DNA from: Pelagibacteraceae bacterium AG-447-N18
Lineage (GTDB): Bacteria > Pseudomonadota > Alphaproteobacteria > Pelagibacterales > Pelagibacteraceae
Direction of reading: 5' to 3'
DNA length: 63,648 nt
NCBI GenBank assembly: GCA_003212275.1
Contig: QCQE01000005.1
Location: forward strand, 1-63,648
Below the pieces are notes generated by a model. It was not told the DNA's origin. It saw only the letters and a list, made by a program, of their open reading frames with translations, and did no database searches. Position numbers and translations under genes: made by a program. Positions 2 through 12,194 of this stretch are shown here, piece after piece (positions within the stretch are counted from its first letter, which is position 1; every line of letters starts with the position of its first letter).

Positions 2-1183
2 GCAAAACAAAAAGCTGCTGAAGAGAAGAAGAAAGAACAAGAGTTACTAGCAAAACAAGAAGAAGCGGAAGAAAAGTTTAAAGAAAAACAAAAAGATCAA
101 AATATTGATAAAAGCGCGCCTGAGATTTTAGTTGCTGAAAAAATTACTACTAACTCACAGGTATATACTTTGAAAGGTAAAGTTAAAGATCAAAGCAAAT
201 TCATTTTAGAAATTGATGGTCAGCCATTAAAATTAGATGAAAAAGGAAACTTTATATTTGAAGGATTTATTATAGATGAAGATGAAGGAGAAGAACTTAC
301 TTTAATTGCAACCGATAGATGGAATAATATTTCAGAAAAAATTGTTAAAGTTAATGTTGAAATTAAAAAAACTAAAGTAGTAAAATCTTACGAAAAACTA
401 ATGCCTAACAAAATTAATGTTAAGAAAGATGAAAATAGAATAGCGTTAGTTATTGGAATTGAAAAATATGAAAACCTAACAAATTTAGATGCAGTTTATG
501 CCAATAGAGATGCTAAAGCTTTTAAAGCTTATGCAAATAGAGCGTTAGGAATTCCAACTGAAAATATAAAACTATTGGTAGATCAAGAGGCTAGTCGATC
601 TGACACTCTTAAGGCATTAAAACTATGGTTACCACAAAAAACAAAAGGATCAAAAAAAGATATTTTTATCTTTTTCGCGGGTCATGGTCTAGCTTCTGAT
701 GATGGAGAGGATTTGTATGTATTACCTCAAGATGGTGACTCTATTCTTTTAAAAGATACTGCTATTTCAAGAGCCGAGATGTTTGAGCAAATTCAAAAAT
801 TAAATCCTAATTCAGTAACCATGTTTTTTGATACTTGTTACAGTGGCCAAACTAGAAAAGAAGAAACTTTAATTGCTGGCTTAAGACCAATTAGAATTGT
901 TGCTGAAAAAAGTAAAACACCAAGTAATTTTACAATTTTTTCAGCATCTAATTTAACTCAAACTTCAGGAAGTATAGAGGAAGCTAAACATGGAATTTTT
1001 TCTTACTATTTAATGAAGGGTCTCGAGGGTAAAGCAGATTTAGATCAAAATAAAAAAATTACTAATGGTGAATTAATAGCTTATTTAAAACAAAATGTTT
1101 CTGAGGAAGCATTTACTAATAATAGACAGCAAGAGCCAATGTTATCTGGCAACCCTGAAAAGGTTTTAATTAGTTTCAGATAA
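2..1183 (+). CDS. Caspase-like (peptidase C14/metacaspase) protein, 5'-truncated by window edge
   Basis: This gene is open from the first bases of the window, so its start lies outside. Seen: the first ~40 visible residues are a Lys/Glu/Ala coiled coil. Next comes a small beta-rich, Ig-like region beginning near SAPEILVAE (visible residues ~40-125), then a caspase-fold domain from about residue 140 to the end. The catalytic dyad is present: His228 of the visible fragment in FFAGHGLASDDG and Cys279 in FFDTCYSG. Family knowledge: such domains are cysteine peptidases cutting after Arg/Lys or Asp. Substrate unknown. The fragment is strongly similar to the C-terminal half of the next gene, so the two are tandem paralogs, and its missing N-terminus probably carries an export signal like that paralog (inference). 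A TTG at 170 is an internal codon, not a convincing start. Confidence 0.85.
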   Translation, partial: AKQKAAEEKKKEQELLAKQEEAEEKFKEKQKDQNIDKSAPEILVAEKITTNSQVYTLKGKVKDQSKFILEIDGQPLKLDEKGNFIFEGFIIDEDEGEELTLIATDRWNNISEKIVKVNVEIKKTKVVKSYEKLMPNKINVKKDENRIALVIGIEKYENLTNLDAVYANRDAKAFKAYANRALGIPTENIKLLVDQEASRSDTLKALKLWLPQKTKGSKKDIFIFFAGHGLASDDGEDLYVLPQDGDSILLKDTAISRAEMFEQIQKLNPNSVTMFFDTCYSGQTRKEETLIAGLRPIRIVAEKSKTPSNFTIFSASNLTQTSGSIEEAKHGIFSYYLMKGLEGKADLDQNKKITNGELIAYLKQNVSEEAFTNNRQQEPMLSGNPEKVLISFR

Positions 1184-1205
1184 ATATTAATTCTTAAACA
1201 CAAGT

Positions 1206-1236
1206 TTGATTATATAAAGGTCTTTTATAATATAAT
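1206..1236 (+). promoter_or_regulatory. Possible promoter between the two caspase-like genes
   Basis: The 74-base gap holds TTGATT (1206-1211) and two overlapping TATAAT boxes (1226-1231 and 1231-1236) upstream of the ATG at 1258. Spacings are 14 and 19 bases, neither ideal, so this is a weak candidate. It suggests that the second caspase gene may have its own promoter. Confidence 0.3.
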
Positions 1237-1257
1237 TAAAAAGATAATATGTGATTA

Positions 1258-4200
1258 ATGAAAAAAATATCAAAATATATATTTCTAGTAATTATTTATG
1301 GATTATTATTTGTTGTTAATGCTTTTTCAAAAGTTTATTGCGTAGATGAAAATATTGAAAGTAGAATTGAAAATTTTAAAAAAGATTATTCAAAAAGAGT
1401 AGACGAATTTTTTTATACTTCTTCAGTAAAAGGTGTGGCATGCATGACTTCTTATTATGGAGTAAGTAAAAAAGAATATAATTTTATTAAAAAAAAGTTT
1501 CTGGCTCAAATCAAAGATGGAACCTTACAAAAAAATACAAAAGATAATTCTTTAAAGTCTGGATTTGAAATTAATAAAAAGAAAAAGATTAACTACGTTG
1601 ATGATAACAATTCAGCCTATTGGCAATTTATGCAATTAAAAATGAATGATTTAAGAGGTGATGGAATAGTTTATTATTTATTTGATATTAATAGATTTTA
1701 TAGAGTAAATGAAAATTTTGAGGTTGTCTCAGAAGGTAATTATTCAGTTAATAGAGACAAAAAATTATATGAATTAACAACTGAAGATAATCAAAAATTT
1801 TTATTTAAGATTTCCTTATCAAGTCAGATAGTCGATATTAAATCTAAATTTTACGACTATAAAGGATTTAGAAGATATCAATTTGTATTAGCTGACACCA
1901 ATGAACAGGAAAAAATAAGATCTGCAATACAAAATTTTAAAGAAAATAGATATGCAAAAATTGAAACTGATCCATCACAAGCAAAAAATGTAGAATTAGA
2001 ATCTGCTTTAGATATTGATAAAAGTGAAAAAGTAAAATTTCTAGAAGGTAATGAAAGTTATTTTTGGGGCTATACATTTTTGATAGATGATCTTCGAGGT
2101 AATGGAGCTGTTTATTATAAATTTCAAATTGATAATTATCATAGACTTGATAGAAACTTTAATGTTATATCGAAAGGAAGTTATAAATTTGATGATGGAA
2201 TTTTAAAGTTAAAAGAAGATAAATTTAAATTTGATTTTAAAATTTCAATTACTAATAAAGTAGTTGACATCAAATCAAAGTTTTATGATTACAAAGATTT
2301 CAAGAGATATCGTATTTTAGAAGCAACAAAAAAACAAAAAAAACTTGTTACAAAATCTGTAATCAATTTTGGAAAGAATAAATATGCAGGCTATAGCGAA
2401 AGTGATGATAATTTAGATAGGCTATGGAAAATAATTTTAGATGATAAAGATATTAAAAAGAAATATCTTAAATATACCATAAGTAAAAAATTAGGATCAG
2501 ATCGATCATATCCTAAATTTAAAGGTGACAAAATTAAGACCATGGGTCTTGCAGTTTTCATGGATTATAAAAAAGAATTATCAAAATTAACAAGAGATAA
2601 AAATTTAAAAGAGATTTCAGCATTTGCATGGGGATGGGCTTACTCCACTAAAGATGAATCATCTAAAACTGAACTTGAGGCAATTAAAAATTGTTATAAG
2701 GATGTCGCAAAAAAGAAATTTAATATGGTAGATAGAAAATGTATAATAGTAGATGCAAGACGATTTACTGACGACCACCAATATCCAATGATTTGGAAAA
2801 ATATGTTGAGAGTTGCCAAAAAAAACAGAATTCTATTAGCAAAAGAGTCTGAAAAATCAGAACAACAACTCGCTGAAGAAAAGAAAAAAAAAGAGGCGGA
2901 TGAAAAAAAGAGAAAAGAATTACTTATAGCTCAAAAAAAAGCTGAAGAAGAGAGAAAAAAACAAGAATTACTTTTAGCAAAAAAAAAGAAAGAGGAAGAA
3001 AAAAGAAAAAAAGAGCTTTTATTAGCTCAAAAAAAAGCTGAGGAAGAACGAAAAAAAGAGGAAGAACTTTTAGCTAAAAAAAAAGATGAAGATGAACGAA
3101 AAAAACAAGAGTTAATATTAGCTCAAAAAAAAGCTGAGGAAGAAAAGAAGAAACAAGAGTTACTTCTTGCACAAAAAAAAGCTGAAGAAGAACGAAAAAA
3201 AGAGGAAGAACTCCTTGCCCAAAAAAAAGCTGAAGAAGAAAAAAAGAAACAAGAATTACTTCTCGCACAAAAAAAAGCTGACGAAGAAAAAAAACAAGAT
3301 GAATTAATAGCCAAACTTAAAGAACAAGAAAAGAAAAAACTAAATGAACTAGAGCTTGCTCAAAAAGAAGCAGAAAAAGCATTTGAAGAAAAGAAAAAGA
3401 AATTAAACGTAGATAAAGAGTCACCAGAAATACTTGTTGCTGAAGCAATAACAGTTACCAGTCAAGCTTATAAGCTTAAAGGAAAAATAAAAGATAAAAG
3501 TGATTTCTTTTTGGAAGTTGACGGACAACCAATTCAAGTAAACGAACAAGGAGAATTCATATTTGAGGGTTTTATCATTAATACAAATCAGGGTGAGGAA
3601 CTAACTTTAGTAGCGGTTGATAGATGGAACAATTCTTCTGAAAAAAGTGTAAAAATTAATGTCGAATTAAAAGAAATGAAAGTAGCAAAAGGTTATGAAA
3701 AATTACTTCCGAATAAAATTAAGGTAAATAAAGATAAGAATAAGATCGCTATTATTATTGGTGTTGAGAAATATGAATATCTAACAAATCTAGATGCAGC
3801 ATTTGCTAATCGAGACGCTAATGCTTTTAGGGAGTACGCTGTAAGAGCTTTAGGTGTTGATCCATCAAATATTAATCTACTAGTCGATAAAGATGCTAAT
3901 AGACCTAAAATTTTGAAAGCTCTAAAACTTTGGTTACCAAAAATTGGTGGAGAGAACAGAGATATATATTTATTTTTTGCTGGTCATGGTCTAGCATCAG
4001 ATGATGGAAAAAATCTTTATATCTTACCTCAGGATGGTGATGCAAGTTTATTAGAAGATACAGCAATAACTAGAAGTGAAATTATAAAATTACTACAAAA
4101 AACAAATCCTAAATCAGTAACAATGTTTTTTGATACTTGTTATAGTGGTCAAACTAGAAATGAAGAAACATTAGTAGCTAGTTTAAGACCTGTAAGAATT

Positions 4201-4485
4201 GTTGCTGATGATCAAGAAATTCCAAATAATTTTACAATTTTTACTGCTTCTGCAAATGATCAAACATCAGGAAGTATCGAGGAAGCAAAACATGGAATGT
4301 TCTCTTATTACCTGATGAAAGGGATGGAAGGGGCGGCAGATCAAAATAATGATAATAAAATTAGTAATGGTGAATTAATTGCTTATGTTCAAGAAAATGT
4401 TAGTAAAGTAGCTTTTTCACAAAATAGAGAGCAGGATCCGAATATGTCTGGTGACAGGGATAAAATATTATTTTCTTACAAATAA
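1258..4485 (+). CDS. Exported multidomain caspase-like protein (duplicated N-terminal module, coiled coil, Ig-like, C14 domain)
   Basis: A 1075-residue protein. Seen in order: signal peptide (1-25); two copies of an unrecognised ~115-residue module (about 119-235 and 266-380), each with DLRG-GVYY-like and VDIKSKFYDYK motifs; a region with FAWGWAYS and paired Cys (~400-505) that recalls DUF4189-like domains; a long Lys/Glu/Ala coiled coil of QKKAEEE-type repeats (~535-715); an Ig-like beta region (~720-800); and a caspase-fold domain (~820-1075). The catalytic dyad is His910 (FFAGHG) and Cys961 (FDTCYSG). The C-terminal half is paralogous to the preceding gene. The stop lies 5 bases from the end of the convergent coiled-coil gene. 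Function unknown. An exported cysteine protease or signalling scaffold is the simplest inference. Confidence 0.85.
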   Translation: MKKISKYIFLVIIYGLLFVVNAFSKVYCVDENIESRIENFKKDYSKRVDEFFYTSSVKGVACMTSYYGVSKKEYNFIKKKFLAQIKDGTLQKNTKDNSLKSGFEINKKKKINYVDDNNSAYWQFMQLKMNDLRGDGIVYYLFDINRFYRVNENFEVVSEGNYSVNRDKKLYELTTEDNQKFLFKISLSSQIVDIKSKFYDYKGFRRYQFVLADTNEQEKIRSAIQNFKENRYAKIETDPSQAKNVELESALDIDKSEKVKFLEGNESYFWGYTFLIDDLRGNGAVYYKFQIDNYHRLDRNFNVISKGSYKFDDGILKLKEDKFKFDFKISITNKVVDIKSKFYDYKDFKRYRILEATKKQKKLVTKSVINFGKNKYAGYSESDDNLDRLWKIILDDKDIKKKYLKYTISKKLGSDRSYPKFKGDKIKTMGLAVFMDYKKELSKLTRDKNLKEISAFAWGWAYSTKDESSKTELEAIKNCYKDVAKKKFNMVDRKCIIVDARRFTDDHQYPMIWKNMLRVAKKNRILLAKESEKSEQQLAEEKKKKEADEKKRKELLIAQKKAEEERKKQELLLAKKKKEEEKRKKELLLAQKKAEEERKKEEELLAKKKDEDERKKQELILAQKKAEEEKKKQELLLAQKKAEEERKKEEELLAQKKAEEEKKKQELLLAQKKADEEKKQDELIAKLKEQEKKKLNELELAQKEAEKAFEEKKKKLNVDKESPEILVAEAITVTSQAYKLKGKIKDKSDFFLEVDGQPIQVNEQGEFIFEGFIINTNQGEELTLVAVDRWNNSSEKSVKINVELKEMKVAKGYEKLLPNKIKVNKDKNKIAIIIGVEKYEYLTNLDAAFANRDANAFREYAVRALGVDPSNINLLVDKDANRPKILKALKLWLPKIGGENRDIYLFFAGHGLASDDGKNLYILPQDGDASLLEDTAITRSEIIKLLQKTNPKSVTMFFDTCYSGQTRNEETLVASLRPVRIVADDQEIPNNFTIFTASANDQTSGSIEEAKHGMFSYYLMKGMEGAADQNNDNKISNGELIAYVQENVSKVAFSQNREQDPNMSGDRDKILFSYK
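2905..3370 (+). repeat. Coiled-coil coding repeats in the caspase-like gene
   Basis: The DNA repeats units encoding QKKAEEE(R/K)KK(Q/E)ELLLA with near-identical nucleotide stretches, for example around 3030-3070 and 3170-3212. Runs of A within each unit make the tract prone to slippage and copy-number change. The unit phase keeps the heptad pattern. Confidence 0.8.
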
Positions 4486-4490
4486 TTTTT

Positions 4491-6083
4491 TTAAGCTCCA
4501 GCAAAATCAACTACATAGGCCTCTAGTTCTTTAAAGGTATCTGTATTTTTGATTGCTATCAGAGATTCTTTTATCTCTTTAGAATTTTCTAATCGATTAA
4601 TAAATGCCTTGTATAGATTTCCTACAGGATACTCTAATAATATAAAACTTCTATATTTGCCGTTATCCATTTTGAACATTTTAGTTTTTGCGATTTCATA
4701 ACCACTGATAGTTACTTCTTTAACAACTAAAGTTGAGACTCTTTCCATTTCAGATTTTGTTTTTATATCTTCTCCAATACCAGCTTGAATTACTGTTTCA
4801 TTAACTTTTGTGTTAAGTCTTGTCTCCAGTTTTTTTCCCAGCTCTCTTAAAGCAGCATTAGTTGCAGAGTCTATTGAGCCTTGTAGAGTATCTACAACAG
4901 CTGTACCTCTTACATAGATTACTTTTTCATTCGCCTTTGGCATCATGATAAACCATTCAGGAATAGACTCTTGGATTTCCTTTTCCTCTTGGGCTTTAAT
5001 TTTTTTGATTTCTTCAAGTTGACTATTTAATGCTTTAATAAATTCATCTTCATTATTAACTACGTATTCTGAAATTGGTGTTTCACCTAATTCCAATATT
5101 TCTTTTCTAACTACTTGAATTACCTCTTGTCTTTCACCCTCAAGTTTTTCAGCAGCTTTTTTGCTTTCTGCTTCTATTCTCAATTGTTCTAATTGTTTAC
5201 CTAGAGCTTGAATATTTGCATCATCAGCAAATTCACTATTTTGTGTTACAGGTTTAGCACCAAGTGCTATGATTTCACTTTCAATTTCTTCTTTTAAAGC
5301 TTTTAATCTTTCTTCTTTCTCTTTTTCAGCTTTCGCTTTTTTTAGTTCATCATATTTATCTTTTAAGGCTTTTATTTTTGCTTTTTTAACTTCTTCAAGT
5401 TGACTCTGAAGTGCTTGAATTTCTTCATCATCAGCAAATTCACTTTTTTTAGTTACAGGTTCTACTCCAAGAGCAATTATTTGATCTTCAATTTCTTTTT
5501 TTAGTGCTTGTCTTTTATTTTCTTTTGCATCTTTTTTCTGTTTTTCAGCAGTTTCCTTTTCTTCTTTTGCTTTTAGTTCTTTAATTTCACTTAATTGTTT
5601 CTCAAGTGCTTGAATTTCCTCATCATCTGCAAATTCTTTTTCTTTTTTTTGTGTAACTGGCTCAAATCCAAGAGCAGTAATTTCATCTTCAATTTCTTTT
5701 TTTAGTGCTTGTCTTTTATTTTCTTTTGCATCTTTTTTCTGTTTTTCAGCAGTTTCCTTTTCTTCTTTTGCTTTTAAATCAGCAGATTTTTTATCTTTTT
5801 CTTCTTGTATTTTTATCAATTCATTTAGTTGTTCTTTTAACGAAATGATATATTTTTTGTCAGATTGGACTAATTTTCTTTTTACAGGTTCACTATCTAA
5901 ATTATAAATCTTTATTTTTAATTCTTTGATCACTGCTTTTTCAGCAGTGTGTTCATCAGCCATTACATTAGTAAAAATACTAAAAGCACTTAAAATGCCA
6001 TGACCAAAAGTTATTGATTGAACTGAGGCATTTATCAAAATACCAAAAAATAAAGATAATAATATTTTTCTTAAATTTTTCAT
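4491..6083 (-). CDS. Exported coiled-coil repeat protein with LPP20-like C-terminal domain
   Basis: 530 residues, start ATG at 6083 overlapping the stop of the upstream gene. Seen: N-terminal hydrophobic export signal (~1-42); five imperfect ~65-residue charged helical repeats (about 50-385), each with a LG-EPV motif followed by a DDEEIQAL--QL segment; and a C-terminal domain (~390-520) with YVRGTAVVDTLQGSIDSATN and a conserved helix-strand pattern resembling the LPP20 family. No lipobox Cys was seen, so it is probably soluble periplasmic or signal-anchored. It is the last gene of a three-gene operon with the DUF4384-like and TPR-protease genes. Role unknown. The repeats suggest a scaffold or spacer (inference). 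Confidence 0.75.
   Translation of the reverse strand: MKNLRKILLSLFFGILINASVQSITFGHGILSAFSIFTNVMADEHTAEKAVIKELKIKIYNLDSEPVKRKLVQSDKKYIISLKEQLNELIKIQEEKDKKSADLKAKEEKETAEKQKKDAKENKRQALKKEIEDEITALGFEPVTQKKEKEFADDEEIQALEKQLSEIKELKAKEEKETAEKQKKDAKENKRQALKKEIEDQIIALGVEPVTKKSEFADDEEIQALQSQLEEVKKAKIKALKDKYDELKKAKAEKEKEERLKALKEEIESEIIALGAKPVTQNSEFADDANIQALGKQLEQLRIEAESKKAAEKLEGERQEVIQVVRKEILELGETPISEYVVNNEDEFIKALNSQLEEIKKIKAQEEKEIQESIPEWFIMMPKANEKVIYVRGTAVVDTLQGSIDSATNAALRELGKKLETRLNTKVNETVIQAGIGEDIKTKSEMERVSTLVVKEVTISGYEIAKTKMFKMDNGKYRSFILLEYPVGNLYKAFINRLENSKEIKESLIAIKNTDTFKELEAYVVDFAGA
5484..5776 (-). repeat. Perfect 92-bp direct repeat inside the coiled-coil gene
   Basis: Positions 5484-5575 and 5685-5776 are identical over 92 bases and are offset by exactly 201 bases (67 codons). 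They encode the KQKKDAKENKRQALKKEIED segment twice. The lack of any synonymous difference indicates recent duplication or gene conversion. Confidence 0.9.
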
Positions 6084-6874
6084 TATCTGTAAATTGTATA
6101 TCCTTTATACTTATATATTATAAATTTTTCCTTTATATAAGCATTTTTTAAGTCTTCAAATTTTGTATATTTATCAAGCCAATTTATCTCTTTTTCAGAC
6201 CCTATAATGAACAAATATTCATCTACATTTTTTTTATTTAAGTTTTCAGGAAAATAAATTTGAAATTTACCTTTTTTTGGAATTGTTAAATTATCTACAT
6301 CTACAAAGTTTTTATTATCTAATTTATTTGGAAATATTTTATAAACTTGGTAGTCTTTTTCTTCATAAGGTAATATTTGAAATATACTAACATACAATGG
6401 TCTGTTTAATACTAAATCAATTTTAAGCTCATCTCCCTCTTTAAAATTTTTTTCATTTAATTTGACATTAAAATCAAAACTATTATCTAAGGTTTTTGTA
6501 ATTTTAATTACTTCTGCTTGAATCTTTATGGTACAGATATAACTTTGTTCATCTGCACCTTCTATTTTTTGAACTGAAATATCTTTTTTAAGCTCTTGTA
6601 AATTGGTTATTTCACTATCAAATGAACTTAAAAAAAATTGATTTCTTTCACAAGATGTTTTTCCATCGACATCCGAACACATTTCAATTTCATCTGATGA
6701 TATTCTTTGCCCCGAAACCTTCTCTAATGCTTTTAATTTTGCTCTCTGTTTAGCAAGGGTACAACCCTCATTTTCACTCATGTTACCACTATAAATATAT
6801 TTTCCTTCAGAGATTACCACTTCAGCCATGACTGAAAAATTAAGTAGTAAGAAAATTATAATTAAACGTTTCAT
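6083..6874 (-). CDS. Exported DUF4384-like protein
   Basis: 263 residues with a clear signal peptide (about 1-17, ending near MAEVV). The N-terminal half has a QRAKLKALEKVSG segment and a Cys-containing stretch (CSDVDGKTSC) that recall LPP20/FlgO-type exported proteins. The second half (~125-240) has the RPLYVSIFQILP and YKIFPN strands typical of DUF4384. Known: DUF4384 is often fused to, or encoded next to, caspase-family domains, which fits the convergent caspase genes here. Start ATG overlaps the stop of the TPR-protease gene, and its stop overlaps the start of the coiled-coil gene, so the three are translationally coupled. Function unknown. Confidence 0.7.
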   Translation of the reverse strand: MKRLIIIFLLLNFSVMAEVVISEGKYIYSGNMSENEGCTLAKQRAKLKALEKVSGQRISSDEIEMCSDVDGKTSCERNQFFLSSFDSEITNLQELKKDISVQKIEGADEQSYICTIKIQAEVIKITKTLDNSFDFNVKLNEKNFKEGDELKIDLVLNRPLYVSIFQILPYEEKDYQVYKIFPNKLDNKNFVDVDNLTIPKKGKFQIYFPENLNKKNVDEYLFIIGSEKEINWLDKYTKFEDLKNAYIKEKFIIYKYKGYTIYR

Positions 6875-8367
6875 TAATTTGAGACTGCTATAAGGGCAAT
6901 ACTGGGTAACATTTTTTCATAAAGAGTAGATTTATCAAATTTTATAGACCGAGTTAAATTTTTATTATCATATGGAAATATTTCTTTAATCATATTGCTT
7001 TTAATAGCGAAACCCATGTCAGAGGGAATTTGACCTGTAGTCATCAAAACTCCTAATTTATCTAATGTTGCAAAACTTACTCCAACTAATTTACCCTCTA
7101 AATTAAAAATTGGACCACCACTATTACCTTGATTAATGGCTGCTGTGGTAAGCATTATACCAGTTTCATCATCGAAAATCTTACTTATGATACCTTGAGT
7201 AATGGTTGGTTGATCAAATGTTATACCAATACCTGGAAATCCGATACTTATTACATCAGCTCCTATTTTAGGTTCAGCAAAATTTTTACTATCAATGGCA
7301 AATTTTTTTGGATACGGATTTTCTAATTTTAAAATTGCAAGATCATAATCTCTAGAAAAATTAGAAATTCTTGCTTCACTCACGATACCTGTTCCATTTC
7401 TGACAGCAATTTTTTTGGCAGTCTGAACAATATGATAATTTGTTATTACATACTTACCATCCCCAACAATAAACCCACTCCCAGTACCGGTTGGCGCAAA
7501 AATAAAATCTTCATAATCTGGTTTGACTTCCTTTTCATCATAGTTTTCAATTTCTTTTTCTATATATCCTAAGATTTTTTCTACAATATTTTCAATTACT
7601 ACTGGTTCATCAAAATATGTGGGATCAACTGATAATATCCAGGATTTACTTGAGAGTATTTTTTTTTTATCTTTATTAAGTTCATGAAATTTATAAACTT
7701 TTAGCTTAGCTTCTATTGCTTTTTCTTTTTTGCCTTTAAATAAATACAAACCAGCTATTTGATCTAAAACTCTAATATGATTTGGATTTCTTTTAAGATA
7801 ATTTTCTAAAATATTAATAGCTGCATCAATATCATTAAATGAAATGTAATAATCTGAAATTGCTAAAGAAACTGCTGCGGTTTTTTGGTTATTATGTAAT
7901 TCTTGTAATATCTCAATGGCTTTCTGTCCTTCACCAATTCTAGTGAGTGCGGTAGCTAATGTGATTTTTGGTCTTATTAAATCTGGATTTATTGAAATTG
8001 CTTGCTTTGATAATCTTATAGATTTATCAATTTTTCCCTGAATTAATTTTACTTCAGCTAACCCGACCAAACTTAAAGACTCAACATACTTGTTTGTTGT
8101 AAAAAAAGCTTTTTCATAAAACTCTTCTGCTTTAAAAGTTTGATTGATTTTTAGATAAATATCACCATACATGATGTGGACTTTATCTTGCTGAGTATCG
8201 TTGCCTATCTTAATTTTCTTTAATAGATTTATCGCTGACTTTAAATCATTTCTGTTAATTTCAGCTCTTATTTCATCAATTTTAGTGTCAAAAGCATCAG
8301 CTAAAATTACGTTAATTTGAAAAAAAAAGATTAAAAAAAGATTTATGAAAAAATTTTTTTTAAACAT
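6874..8367 (-). CDS. Exported TPR plus trypsin-like (Deg/S1C-type) serine protease
   Basis: 497 residues. Seen: signal peptide (1-24); about six TPR-like helical repeats (~28-240); a linker; and a chymotrypsin-fold protease domain (~285-465). The full catalytic triad is visible: His312 (TNYHIVQ), Asp342 (DYDLAILKL) and Ser416 (GNSGGP). There is no PDZ domain, unlike typical DegP/DegQ. Known: HtrA-family enzymes act on misfolded or regulatory periplasmic proteins. Inference: the TPR part recruits a protein partner or substrate, possibly from this locus. First gene of the operon that continues into the DUF4384-like and coiled-coil genes. It is divergent from rarD across a 77-base gap. Confidence 0.85.
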   Translation of the reverse strand: MFKKNFFINLFLIFFFQINVILADAFDTKIDEIRAEINRNDLKSAINLLKKIKIGNDTQQDKVHIMYGDIYLKINQTFKAEEFYEKAFFTTNKYVESLSLVGLAEVKLIQGKIDKSIRLSKQAISINPDLIRPKITLATALTRIGEGQKAIEILQELHNNQKTAAVSLAISDYYISFNDIDAAINILENYLKRNPNHIRVLDQIAGLYLFKGKKEKAIEAKLKVYKFHELNKDKKKILSSKSWILSVDPTYFDEPVVIENIVEKILGYIEKEIENYDEKEVKPDYEDFIFAPTGTGSGFIVGDGKYVITNYHIVQTAKKIAVRNGTGIVSEARISNFSRDYDLAILKLENPYPKKFAIDSKNFAEPKIGADVISIGFPGIGITFDQPTITQGIISKIFDDETGIMLTTAAINQGNSGGPIFNLEGKLVGVSFATLDKLGVLMTTGQIPSDMGFAIKSNMIKEIFPYDNKNLTRSIKFDKSTLYEKMLPSIALIAVSN

Positions 8368-8444: not shown

Positions 8445-9323
8445 ATGAACAAAGATTTTAATAGAGGATTATTGTTAACTTCATTGGGTTCCTTTTGGTG
8501 GGGATTTATTGGCGTTATATATTTCGAGTCTGTTTCTTTTATTGGCCATACTGAATTAGTTGTCCATAGATGTTTATGGACTGCAATAATGTTGATTTTT
8601 ACCACTACATTTTTATCTAAGTGGAAAATTTTTTATAAAGAAATTAAAGATAAAAAAAAATTAATTGCATTATTTTTGTCTGGTTTTTTAATTTTTGTTA
8701 ATTGGTCAATATGGATTTATGCCGTTGCATCGGAGAGGATTATTGATGCTAGTTTTGGTTATTTTATAATGCCAATAATTAGTGTTCTTCTAGGATATAT
8801 TTTTTTTAAAGAAGAACTTAATAACAAAAGGATTTTTTCTATTATTTTAGTTTTTGTATCAATATTAATTTTAATCTTTTTCAATCTTAAATCCTTGCCG
8901 TGGGTCGGTCTTATTGTAGCTTTTAGTTGGGCCTTTTATAATTTAGTCAGAAAAAAAATTGAAATTGATACTGATATTGGATTGCTAATTGAAAGCTTAT
9001 ATATTTTTCCTTTTGCTTTAGTGGCATTTTATATAATCGCAAATAATGGTCTAAATGACTTTAATTTAAGTAATCCAGGATTAAGTCTATATTTACTTTT
9101 AGCTGGTCCAATGACTGTGATTCCTTTGTTTCTCTATGTAAGAGGGGTTGAGTTGATTGGATTAGGTCCTACTGGAATGATATTTTATATTACGCCAACA
9201 TTACAGTTCATTTTAGGTTATTTTTATTATGGTGAGGATTTTTCATTAGTTAAATTTCTAAGTTTTATTATTATTTGGATTGCTGTAATTATATATTTAA
9301 ATGATTTATATGAAAAAAATTAA
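8445..9323 (+). CDS. rarD: RarD-type EamA/DMT permease
   Basis: 292 residues with ten hydrophobic segments and the N-terminal GLLLTSLGSFWWGFIGVIYF signature of RarD. Known: RarD proteins belong to the drug/metabolite transporter superfamily. Several are amino-acid or small-metabolite exporters, and the chloramphenicol phenotype of E. coli rarD is not a firm substrate assignment. Overlaps the start of the next gene, a transglycosylase, by several codons, so the two are probably co-transcribed. Substrate here unknown. Confidence 0.85.
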   Translation: MNKDFNRGLLLTSLGSFWWGFIGVIYFESVSFIGHTELVVHRCLWTAIMLIFTTTFLSKWKIFYKEIKDKKKLIALFLSGFLIFVNWSIWIYAVASERIIDASFGYFIMPIISVLLGYIFFKEELNNKRIFSIILVFVSILILIFFNLKSLPWVGLIVAFSWAFYNLVRKKIEIDTDIGLLIESLYIFPFALVAFYIIANNGLNDFNLSNPGLSLYLLLAGPMTVIPLFLYVRGVELIGLGPTGMIFYITPTLQFILGYFYYGEDFSLVKFLSFIIIWIAVIIYLNDLYEKN

Positions 9324-10311
9324 CATTTTTTTTTTAATTCTATTTTTTTTTAACTCCAGTTTATTAGCAAATGAAAGTATTGATTTTGAGAAGTGGAAAA
9401 AAGATTTTAAAAAAAGAGCTTTAGCAAATAATATTTCTGAGAAAACTTTTGATCTTGTAATGACGGATACTAAGTTCTTAGCAAATGTTATAAAATATGA
9501 CAGGTACCAACCTGAATTCTATGAAGACACTAAAACTTATGTATCAAAAAGATCTTCTGCAAAAAAATTAAATAAAGGTATCGACTTTTATTTAGATAAT
9601 AAAGATTTGATTAATGTTGTTGAAAATAAGTTTGAGATTGAGAAGGAATTATTGTTGTCATTGATGGGTATTGAAACTAATTATGGAACTTATGTCGGAA
9701 AAATGGATATTCTTTCCTCTTTAGCAACATTGAGTTATGATAAGAGAAGATCTGAGTTTTTTACTAAAGAGCTTTTGATTTTACTAAAATTAATTGATGA
9801 AAATCAAATAGATTATAAATCATTATATGGTTCATGGGCAGGTGCATTTGGTTTTTTTCAATTTATGCCCTCAACTATTAAAAATCATGCGATTGATTTT
9901 AATACTGATAATTATATTGATTTAAAAAATTCTCAAGATGCTTATGCTTCAGCAGCGAATTATCTTAAAAAAATTGGTTGGAAAAAAGACTCACCTTGTT
10001 TTTATAGAATAGATCTTAAAGAAGATATTCCAAAAAAGTATTTAAACGTTTCTGCTAAAAAACTTCAAAATAAAAAAAAATTAGGATTTTTTAAAAAATA
10101 TATTAATAATTATGATGATATAAGCTTTTTGAAATCAAATTATAATGTTGCAATAATTACCCCAGATAAAGATATTATTCCTGGCGCAGATACTTTGAAC
10201 CCTGCATATATTGTATTTGATAATTATGAAATAATCCTCCAATGGAATAGATCTCTAAGATTTGCTTTAGCAGTTTGTACCTTAAAAGATAAATTTAAAA
10301 ATGAATTATAA
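9310..10311 (+). CDS. Lytic murein transglycosylase (MltB/SLT_2 family)
   Basis: About 333 residues. I prefer the ATG at 9310 (MKKINIFF, a clean signal peptide) over the in-frame ATG at 9301. The MltB-type fold is indicated by LLSLMGIETNYG with catalytic Glu122 (counted from 9310), GSWAGAFGFFQFMPST, and the DAYASAANYLKKIGW segment. It cleaves the MurNAc-GlcNAc bond of peptidoglycan to give 1,6-anhydro ends in the periplasm. There is no lipobox, so it resembles soluble MltB relatives. It overlaps rarD upstream and the RlpA-like lipoprotein gene downstream, in an operon with other cell-wall genes. Confidence 0.88.
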   Translation: MKKINIFFLILFFFNSSLLANESIDFEKWKKDFKKRALANNISEKTFDLVMTDTKFLANVIKYDRYQPEFYEDTKTYVSKRSSAKKLNKGIDFYLDNKDLINVVENKFEIEKELLLSLMGIETNYGTYVGKMDILSSLATLSYDKRRSEFFTKELLILLKLIDENQIDYKSLYGSWAGAFGFFQFMPSTIKNHAIDFNTDNYIDLKNSQDAYASAANYLKKIGWKKDSPCFYRIDLKEDIPKKYLNVSAKKLQNKKKLGFFKKYINNYDDISFLKSNYNVAIITPDKDIIPGADTLNPAYIVFDNYEIILQWNRSLRFALAVCTLKDKFKNEL

Positions 10312-11050
10312 AATTTTATTAATACTTTTATTATCAATTTTTTTAATAAGTTGTGAACAGGTTGCAATGAAGCCAAATAAGATTGAAACAAAAATAGAGA
10401 AAAAATATAGCAATAGTGGCTTTGCATTAATTTTTGATGAAAATGTAAAAAAAATTAAAAAATTAGACGATAGATCATTAATGATCCATCACAAATCACT
10501 AAAAAGAAAGTCTGCTGTTAAGATCACAAACCCAAAAAATGGAAAGTCTTTAATTGCAGAAGTAAAATCTAATAACCAAAAATTTTCAGATTTTTACAAT
10601 TCTGTTATATCTAAAAGAATTGCTGAAGATTTAGATCTTGACTTCAATGAACCACTATTAGAAATAATCTTAATATCTAGAAATTCTACTTTTGTTGCAA
10701 AAAAAAGTAAAACATTTGACGAGGAAAAAAAAGTTGCTGAAAAGGCACCAATTGATGGTATTCAAATTAATGATTTAAGCAAAACTAAGAAAAAAGAAAA
10801 AAAAACCACAAAAGAAAAATTCTCTTACTCAATAAAGATTGCTGATTTTTATTATAAATCTACTGCTAAAACGATGATTTCTAGAATCAAAGATGAAACT
10901 TCAATTAAAAACACTAAAATTAAAAAATTATCACAAACTAAATTTAGAGTATTAATAGGTCCTTTTAATGATATAAAAAGTTTGAAAGAGTCATTTGAAA
11001 AGTTAAAATCTCTTAATTTCGAAAACTTAGAAGTGTTAAAAAATGTTTAA
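10301..11050 (+). CDS. rlpA: RlpA-like lipoprotein with SPOR domain (degenerate)
   Basis: 249 residues. A lipoprotein signal ends in LISC (Cys18). The middle (~40-130) aligns by eye with the RlpA double-psi barrel (VKITNPKNGKSLIAEV corresponds to VRVTNLENGRSV), but the usual RINDRGPF stretch is replaced, so transglycosylase activity may be lost. A Lys-rich linker leads to a C-terminal SPOR domain (~172-247, YSIKIADFYYKSTAK to LIGPFND) that would bind denuded septal peptidoglycan. Position immediately before the D,D-carboxypeptidase gene is the usual alphaproteobacterial context. Its stop overlaps the dacC start. Confidence 0.7.
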   Translation: MNYKILLILLLSIFLISCEQVAMKPNKIETKIEKKYSNSGFALIFDENVKKIKKLDDRSLMIHHKSLKRKSAVKITNPKNGKSLIAEVKSNNQKFSDFYNSVISKRIAEDLDLDFNEPLLEIILISRNSTFVAKKSKTFDEEKKVAEKAPIDGIQINDLSKTKKKEKKTTKEKFSYSIKIADFYYKSTAKTMISRIKDETSIKNTKIKKLSQTKFRVLIGPFNDIKSLKESFEKLKSLNFENLEVLKNV

Positions 11051-12194
11051 AAATTTTCTAATTACAATTTTTATAACTCTTTTTATTTCCTATAGTGCAC
11101 ATTCTAATATTGACATAAAAGCAAGAACAGCAATTCTACAAGATTTTTTATCGGGTGAAATTCTATACGAAAAAGAGCCAGACAGGTCAATTTATCCTGC
11201 CTCAATGACAAAAATAATGACCTCCATTATTGCTTTCGATTTGATTAAATCAGGCGATTTAACTTTAGATGAAAAATTTATAATTTCCGAAAGAGCTTGG
11301 CGATTATCTACATCCGGATATTCTTCAATGTTTGTTATGGTAAATGATGAAGTAAGTGTAGAAAATTTACTTAGGGGTATTATTGTTGCCTCAGGAAACG
11401 ACGCTTGTGTTGCATTAGCTGAAGGTATAGCAGGTACAGAAGAGGAATTTGCTTTAATGATGACTTCCAAAGCACAAGAAATTGGTATGAGTAATACAAA
11501 TTTTGCAAACTCATCTGGAATTAATGATCCCGACAATTATTCAACAGTAAAAGACATAATGATAATGTCTCATTATTTAATTAAAAACTATCCAGAATAT
11601 TACGAATGGTTCAGTGAAAAAGAATTTACTTGGGATAGAACTGGTGGCGATCCAATTACTCAAGGAAATAGAAATCCACTTCTATATAAAAATATGGGTG
11701 CAGATGGAATTAAAACTGGATATCTAGCAGTGGAAAAATATTCTTTAGCATCATCATTAGAAAGAAAAGGTAGACGGCTAATTGCAGTTGCTAGTGGCTT
11801 TGAAACTAAAAATTCTAGATCTAGAGAAAGCTCAAAATTATTGACATATGGTTTAACGAATTTTGATTTAGTAGAAATAAATAAATCGGGGGAAGATTTT
11901 GATAGCGTTGATGTTTGGTTAGGAAAAAAGGATTTTGTTAAAGTTTATACTAAAGAAGATATCTATAAAATTATAAAAAAAGGTAAAAAAAAACTATTAA
12001 AAGTTAAAATGTTATATGAAGGACCTGTGGAAGCTCCAATTAAAAAAGACCAAGTTTTAGCCAAATTAAAGATCATCTACGATGATGAATTAATTGATGA
12101 ATATGATCTTTTAGCAAAAGAACAAGTTAACAAAGTAAATATTTTTTCAAGATTAATGAAATCCTTAAATTATTTGATTTGGGGTGATGTCTAA
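11043..12194 (+). CDS. dacC: D-alanyl-D-alanine carboxypeptidase (penicillin-binding protein 5/6 family)
   Basis: 383 residues with signal peptide (1-21). The S11 peptidase motifs are complete: SMTK with nucleophile Ser54 (PASMTKIM), SGN (ASGNDACVAL) and KTG (DGIKTGYL). It removes the terminal D-Ala from peptidoglycan pentapeptides in the periplasm. The C-terminal ~110 residues form the PBP5-type beta domain (VYTKEDIYKIIKKGKKKLLK to DQVLAKLKI) and end in a short amphipathic segment that may tether it to the membrane. Overlaps rlpA and tmk. Confidence 0.92.
   Translation: MFKNFLITIFITLFISYSAHSNIDIKARTAILQDFLSGEILYEKEPDRSIYPASMTKIMTSIIAFDLIKSGDLTLDEKFIISERAWRLSTSGYSSMFVMVNDEVSVENLLRGIIVASGNDACVALAEGIAGTEEEFALMMTSKAQEIGMSNTNFANSSGINDPDNYSTVKDIMIMSHYLIKNYPEYYEWFSEKEFTWDRTGGDPITQGNRNPLLYKNMGADGIKTGYLAVEKYSLASSLERKGRRLIAVASGFETKNSRSRESSKLLTYGLTNFDLVEINKSGEDFDSVDVWLGKKDFVKVYTKEDIYKIIKKGKKKLLKVKMLYEGPVEAPIKKDQVLAKLKIIYDDELIDEYDLLAKEQVNKVNIFSRLMKSLNYLIWGDV

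Follow-up and report, generated by a model that had tools for sequence, protein, structure and literature searches.

It has long been asked whether caspases of bacteria serve in cell death or in defence, mostly with regard to intracellular proteins of complex bacteria. The locus described here raises it for caspases that look exported, in the very small genomes of SAR11 bacteria, beside a recurrent gene core and with a swappable front end. It occupies positions 2-8367 of contig QCQE01000005.1, contig 5 of the 1.12-Mb genome of Pelagibacteraceae bacterium AG-447-N18, analysed from its first base over 63,648 nucleotides (the window). Two tandem caspase genes on the forward strand converge there on a reverse-strand operon, T-D-L, whose three core genes encode a TPR protein with an HtrA-like serine protease domain (T), a DUF4384 protein (D) and a coiled-coil, LPP20-like protein (L) (Table 1). 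The initial annotation had placed these open reading frames correctly and had read them as an exported proteolytic cascade or an envelope-stress or self-lysis system; that interpretation is partly supported, and it missed both the status of the locus as a rare island and the variation of the caspase N-termini, the latter of which is not visible from one window. Of the three refuting conditions stated with it, the interpretation withstood two, the neighbourhood being conserved and the catalytic residues retained; export, the third, was judged by eye.

The caspases are polymorphic, with a conserved C-terminus of Ig-like and caspase domains and swapped N-termini, here called cassettes. Relatives were collected by scanning named genomes with a caspase profile; the best 80 of 196 confirmed candidates gave 69 loci, a sample in which a few overlap (L102 and L110, for example), from Pelagibacteraceae, SAR116, Magnetospirillum, Phaeospirillum and a few other groups. 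The comparison took in 84 caspases whose N-terminus is complete and no shorter than 120 residues, with low-complexity coiled coils masked. In 17 of the 48 pairs with at least 80% identity across the Ig-caspase part, less than 10% of the N-terminus could be aligned, with 25 distinct caspases involved. The caspase of L067, a chimaera that includes a stretch 94% identical to the initial 90 residues of L, takes part in four of the 17, and without it 13 of 44 pairs are polymorphic. As a control, T, D and L were cut into halves at a fixed fraction, and none of the 14, 18 and 28 pairs, respectively, behaved in this way, pairs not being independent. At L117 two tandem caspases have 95% C-terminal identity and nothing alignable upstream of it. 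In four of five profiled pairs DNA identity jumps close to where the Ig-like domain begins; the fifth, the window against L067, has a coiled coil in common and no sharp step. The adjacent L117 caspase genes (L117:1234-4847) also contain 240 consecutive identical alignment columns within a less similar region, which looks like gene conversion.

Codon choice was compared in a repeated linker, which joins several of the cassettes, and in the signal peptides. The linker between unrelated cassettes (25 sites, near TQIAKAEPSQTQ) has a codon likeness of 0.749 against 0.533 expected from codon usage, and the signal-peptide codons of 15 genes have a likeness of 0.693 against 0.477; the maxima of 200 resamplings were 0.597 and 0.556, respectively. 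This likeness suggests that linker and signal peptide are recombination joints, the alternative being common descent of these pieces.

The enzymatic part of the caspases is conserved. Both window proteins have intact His/Cys dyads, as first annotated, that of caspase 1 being encoded at nucleotides 683-685 (His) and 836-838 (Cys), and both columns are invariant in 18 of 18 aligned sequences, the window's two among them. Across a wider set the motifs are intact in 105 of 109 caspases, while the other four keep the His motif and are without the Cys motif. Caspase 1 matched Pfam Peptidase_C14 at 64.6 bits (cut-off 21.4); caspase 2 had no C14 row in the Pfam search and matched the NCBIfam caspase model at 1e-17, under the model's cut-off. 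The p20-type caspase domain with a His/Cys dyad is that of orthocaspases. Assignment to the EACC1-associated caspases (NF047832) was rejected, with 67.1 and 64.4 bits against a cut-off of 140. In PADLOC the caspases matched the 'caspase' model and T matched RT-Protease_XI and PDC-M35A, in the protease part only; no PADLOC model matched D or L. The four paralogues without a Cys motif (L125:10810-12522, L121:477-2114, L128:2035-3609 and L149:2726-3487), each at a locus with another caspase, are possible pseudo-enzymes. A Phaeospirillum caspase (L145:4273-7434) combines Sel1 repeats and a trypsin-like domain in one protein.

The neighbourhood is conserved across related genomes. By score thresholds of our own, T, D and L are all present in 27 of the 69 fetched loci and at least one of them in 32; at least two caspases occur in 26 loci, and two loci have five. 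At a threshold of 1e-50, T was found in seven genomes out of 397 from the order and in one out of 385 from the class, the window's own not counted in the latter; in all eight the stretch seen also contains D, L and a caspase. The caspase profile, applied at 1e-60 to the same draw of 397, recovered the same seven genomes as T and none with only one of the two; the seven fall in two genera, and the count is uncorrected for relatedness. SAR11 and SAR116 loci largely share the order T-D-L, and the core is mostly encoded on the strand opposite the caspases; the exceptions to this order, which are split, incomplete or rearranged, include L067/L086, L121, L134 and L145. Given such recurrent linkage across genomes and loci, a chance neighbourhood was rejected. 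Strict co-inheritance of T with the caspases held in the draw of 397 genomes but failed among 17 caspase genomes picked after the loci had been seen, T being found in nine of them. The stretches fetched for L075-L079, which gave weak matches to T, contain no caspase of this Ig-caspase family. A Crocinitomicaceae origin of L083, the label of its metagenome-assembled contig, was rejected; the contig is probably mis-binned, since its caspase and a Pelagibacter one (L082) are 99.5% identical in the N-terminus.

In Pelagibacter the locus is an accessory island, rare and at a fixed site. Caspases and core, variously combined, lie there between recG-sdhE and rarD, and another site adjoins an NAD kinase gene (gene names by eye, except rarD). 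In 10 of 10 comparison genomes, each at least 90% complete and chosen because no strong caspase match was seen, rarD adjoins sdhE-recG with no caspase match between them. At L061, L063 and L067 the flanking genes are 91-99.7% identical to those of the window, with one exception at 79%, and the caspases have N-termini that differ from the window's or are different paralogues. Beside rarD, window positions 9301-12194 encode an MltB-type lytic transglycosylase, a weakly matching RlpA/SPOR-like protein and a D,D-carboxypeptidase-like gene (the last by eye); these genes are conserved flank, outside the island.

Table 1 Features of the caspase island in the window (nucleotide positions; +, forward strand; -, reverse strand)
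Feature	Position	Strand	Description
Caspase 1	2..1183	+	K/E-rich coiled coil, Ig-like domain, C-terminal caspase domain; 5' end lost at contig start
Caspase 2, 1075 aa	1258..4485	+	Signal peptide (by eye), N-terminal cassettes, coiled coil, Ig-like domain, caspase domain
Tandem cassette domain x2, caspase 2	1549-1992, 1993-2427	+	About 148 aa each
Coiled-coil linker, caspase 2	2845..3402	+	K/E/A-rich, by eye
Ig-like domain, caspase 2	3445..3663	+	Weak Glucodextran_B match below cut-off; constant C-terminal part begins here
Caspase domain, caspase 2	3748..4404	+	His 3985-3987, Cys 4138-4140
Core gene L, coiled-coil protein	4491..6083	-	LPP20-like C-terminal domain at 4494-5003
Core gene D, DUF4384 protein	6083..6874	-	Pfam match
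Core gene T, TPR and HtrA-like serine protease	6874..8367	-	Triad H312/D342/S416
rarD	8445..9323	+	Island border

A Pfam search of 89 N-termini returned 41 families, each found in at most eight members among the 25 listed. Those listed include MORN (8), TPR, Sel1 (5), PDZ (4) and SBP_bac_8 (2), and SBP_bac_5, OpuAC, SurA_N_3, Trypsin_2 and ankyrin in a single member each. Sources of the cassettes were sought among the open reading frames of the fetched loci and of a few genomes. The L107 cassette is related to a TPR protein of its own genome and to those of five other genomes, the window's included; this relative is called CpoB-like because its gene follows a pal-like gene and precedes tilS/ftsH-like genes (by eye). 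A CpoB-like cassette at L093 is 48-61% identical to the listed copies of other genomes, and one at L117, from SAR116, is 65% identical to the homologue of its own genome and 29% to that of Pelagibacter, which points to separate captures. A region of the L085 caspase, with no Pfam match, has 39% identity (E 2e-22) to the end of a protein taken for TolA from its place in the tol-like cluster of the window's genome. Standalone relatives in the same genome were found for L114 (82%), L107 (73%), L117 (65%) and L103 (59-62%), on the same contig only in L114. Over five pairs, nonsynonymous divergence (dN) was 0.12-0.30 and synonymous divergence (dS) 0.74-1.36 (dN/dS from 0.12/0.74 to 0.30/1.36) by our own Nei-Gojobori script, dS being partly near saturation; with dN well below dS, the cassette domains are maintained under purifying constraint. 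The cassette domain of the window's caspase 2 is present in two to four copies in relatives and has a predicted strand-rich fold (mean pLDDT 77). A fold search with it returned nothing at E<=0.001; the first match was 5hal (E 0.033), with lipocalin- and potempin-type folds among the weak rest.

The caspases and core proteins look exported. All four complete proteins of the window begin with a charged and then a hydrophobic stretch (by eye), in keeping with the export signals first annotated on them, but an unspecific signal-peptide rule of our own passes only two of the four. Across the larger set it passes 74 of 87 caspases with a 5' end and 352 of 818 background open reading frames; because it accepts so many of the latter, it gives no independent proof of export.

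That some cassettes are related to ordinary periplasmic proteins suggests that the caspases differ in the envelope target or ligand which each of them samples. The reading that we tentatively prefer, at a little under an even chance, is an envelope-surveillance system outside the cytoplasm, made of a proteolytic core and caspases with interchangeable sensor or decoy N-termini. The sequences show the anatomy, the linkage, a largely kept T-D-L order, the island site, the N-terminal polymorphism and constrained cassettes related to housekeeping proteins; for export, complex formation, activation, trigger and outcome we infer the following course. The T-D-L core, usually one operon beside one to five caspases, would hold or process the caspases; D and L, together with T in loci that have it, would act as scaffold or helper, while the cassette would set when and where a caspase fires. 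Binding, cleavage or displacement of the cassette by an invader or by envelope damage would release or activate the caspase, which may then cut envelope proteins after basic residues and so arrest or kill the cell. A role in defence or self-killing accords with an island that is rare, with the swapping and with cassette relatives among Tol-Pal and uptake proteins, which phages and bacteriocins are known to exploit. A narrower version, which we consider somewhat unlikely, is a periplasmic repertoire of integrated decoys, in which relatives of envelope proteins were fused by cassette recombination to an exported caspase; an attacker or exploiter of the real envelope protein would then also meet the copy and trigger the protease. 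The recognised cassettes name candidate targets for direct tests, namely Tol-Pal, polyamine, betaine or peptide uptake, and outer-membrane chaperoning.

Several results weigh against envelope surveillance. Many cassettes are without a recognised source (25 of the 41 Pfam families were listed), and the CpoB-like cassette of L107 is no closer to the copy of its own genome (73%) than to those of the other genomes (72-76%). The genomes of L066 and L070 contain no close standalone copy of their own cassettes, and in the window's genome the PotD, OpuAC and family-5 cassettes are all without a match. None of T, D and L scored above threshold in 37 of the 69 fetched caspase stretches, and the system is rare, having not been found in 390 of the order's 397 genomes. 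T was not found in eight of the 17 caspase genomes (G094, G199, G213 and those of L091, L097, L106, L107 and L114), the first three of which are 69-72% complete. At L068/L089 (genome G199; L068:5821-8384) and at L091, D and L are in place with no T adjoining, and none was found elsewhere in the genome, so that T is dispensable or lost there. A cascade from T to the caspases, as first proposed, therefore cannot be general. Viral contigs, phage and plasmid records that were searched gave no match to the system; a phage- or plasmid-borne element was rejected accordingly, and nothing ties the system to phages.

The solute-binding cassettes bear on a rival that we judge unlikely, nutrient or osmolyte sensing, according to which these cassettes would sense substrates and the caspase would cleave envelope regulators, with no defence or death. 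Four N-termini match solute-binding Pfam families (SBP_bac_8 two, SBP_bac_5 one and OpuAC one), and such cassettes share 56-82% identity with standalone proteins whose genes lie in transporter-like operons (named by eye). The PotD-like domains of L066 and L103 are 56-62% identical to a standalone gene in such an operon, the betaine-type binding domain of L070 (OpuAC) is 61-66% identical to standalone relatives, and the family-5 domain of L114 shares 82% identity with a standalone gene of its own contig, some 10 kb distant. The OpuAC cassette matches the solved binding protein 4xz6 and keeps the aligned Trp residues, which have a role in ligand binding; their retention fits a ligand sensor as well and counts against surveillance. 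Purifying constraint on the cassettes agrees with sensing too. However, the CpoB-, TolA- and SurA-like, MORN, PDZ and Sel1 cassettes are, by general knowledge, of protein- or membrane-interaction types, and rapid swapping and rarity would be unusual for nutrient regulation.

The core proteins bear on a second rival. T matched Trypsin_2 at 86.9 bits (cut-off 27.6), and its triad, first annotated as intact, is invariant in seven of seven aligned TPR-proteases, the window's included. Its protease domain is closest to the HtrA family (DegS, DegP and DegQ), with which it has the trypsin fold and the His-Asp-Ser triad in common, but no PDZ domain, which HtrA/DegP proteins carry at the C-terminus, was found among 21 Pfam rows, and T fell below the cut-off of all HtrA-type NCBIfam models listed (94.8 bits against 416.2). 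In trypsin the specificity Asp lies six residues before the catalytic Ser. In 31 members of the T family this residue is Ala in 13, Lys in seven, Thr in three, Asp in three, Ser in two, Pro in two and Arg in one, and T was rejected as a trypsin-like Lys/Arg cutter on this count. Given this and the HtrA-like relationship, a Lys/Arg cut in the lysine-rich caspase linker is not what T would be expected to perform. D matched DUF4384 at 34.5 bits (cut-off 27), as did eight of eight family members at E<=1. The window's L protein scored 14.4 bits against Pfam LPP20 (E 0.053), below the cut-off of 25.9, and 15 of 16 members of its family match at E<=1, the best at 2e-8. A fold search of the PDB with the AlphaFold model of L gave nothing at E<=0.001; the first match was Helicobacter pylori Lpp20, 5ok8 (probability 1.00, E 7.8e-3), with a TM-score of 0.66 by target length and 0.47 by query length.

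Close to the cascade first proposed for this locus, the second rival is envelope stress or quality control, in which the HtrA-like protease and the caspases would degrade damaged envelope proteins on TPR, LPP20 and DUF4384 scaffolds. The nearness of T to DegS, DegP and DegQ agrees with it, and the CpoB-, TolA- and SurA-like cassettes direct attention to Tol-Pal and the building of the outer membrane. We nevertheless consider it quite improbable for a system that, unlike general quality control, was not found in those 390 genomes, varies between close strains and showed no T in part of the caspase genomes, and that, by Pfam, has no PDZ domain on T. Least probable of all is competition between cells, in which the variable caspases would be effectors released to attach to target cells through cassettes that mimic periplasmic proteins of those cells. 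In its favour are the polymorphism, the arrays of as many as five tandem caspases and the series of small, probably exported proteins found next to some of them, but signal peptides alone, by general knowledge, lead only to the periplasm.

The small proteins form a family of about 196 residues, probably exported (motif near DISDFQIEGMSIGDS), which adjoins caspases with up to ten members per stretch (L180:4820-11531, L182:4743-18439, L181:3-4420, L096, L070 and others). In the fetched loci 69 open reading frames matched this family, duplicates included, some with the caspases' signal peptide. SHOCT-type domains were seen in proteins neighbouring caspases and, as a weak match, in one caspase N-terminus (L064:3900-4493, L066:14657-15997 and L066:2203-5949).

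No description of a polymorphic, exported-type caspase system was found among the open-licence papers listed, by title and abstract opening, which is weak evidence of novelty. Bacterial orthocaspases are described as abundant in Alphaproteobacteria, with TPR and Sel1 among their commonest partner domains, and their multi-caspase operons as having at most three caspases, in Desulfococcus, Alphaproteobacteria being among the groups with such operons (PMC6426788, PMC3501461). The present caspases resemble them in caspase fold, His/Cys dyad, TPR and Sel1 partners and multi-caspase operons, and differ by a constant Ig-caspase C-terminus, swapped N-termini that include relatives of periplasmic proteins, and an adjoining T-D-L operon. 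Closest in composition are the alphaproteobacterial QC-dyad pseudo-orthocaspases, with an N-terminal trypsin-like domain, a caspase domain whose His is replaced and a C-terminal DUF4384 (PMC6426788). The same trypsin fold, caspase fold and DUF4384 are there in one protein; here they are in separate genes, with an intact dyad, an LPP20-like partner and polymorphism. Trypsin-caspase fusions, in these proteins and at L145, support joint action. Compared with HtrA, DegS and DegP, T is alike in protease domain and triad and differs in its N-terminal TPR part and the want of a PDZ match.

In polymorphic toxin systems, cassette exchange by recombination generates diversity (PMC3482391). The variable part there is the C-terminal toxin, whereas here the arrangement is reversed, with a constant enzyme and a variable N-terminus, so that the caspases fall outside that class. 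In antiviral nuclease-protease pairs a trypsin-like protease activates a partner proenzyme (PMC12799240); the opening of that abstract has a nuclease effector and no caspase family with swapped N-termini, where the present system has caspases. Diversified antigen-sensor conflict systems with trypsin or caspase effectors are attributed to retroelement hypermutation, many of them with NTPases (PMC10907252). They are alike in joining a variable sensor to a protease effector, and differ in that whole domains are swapped here. In plant NLR receptors with integrated decoys, an immune executioner carries fused copies of host target proteins. The likeness, by analogy, would lie in the fusion of decoy and executioner, with bacterial exported-type caspases in the present case. 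If the decoy version were true, the locus would be a bacterial counterpart of these plant receptors, in one of the ocean's most abundant bacterial groups.

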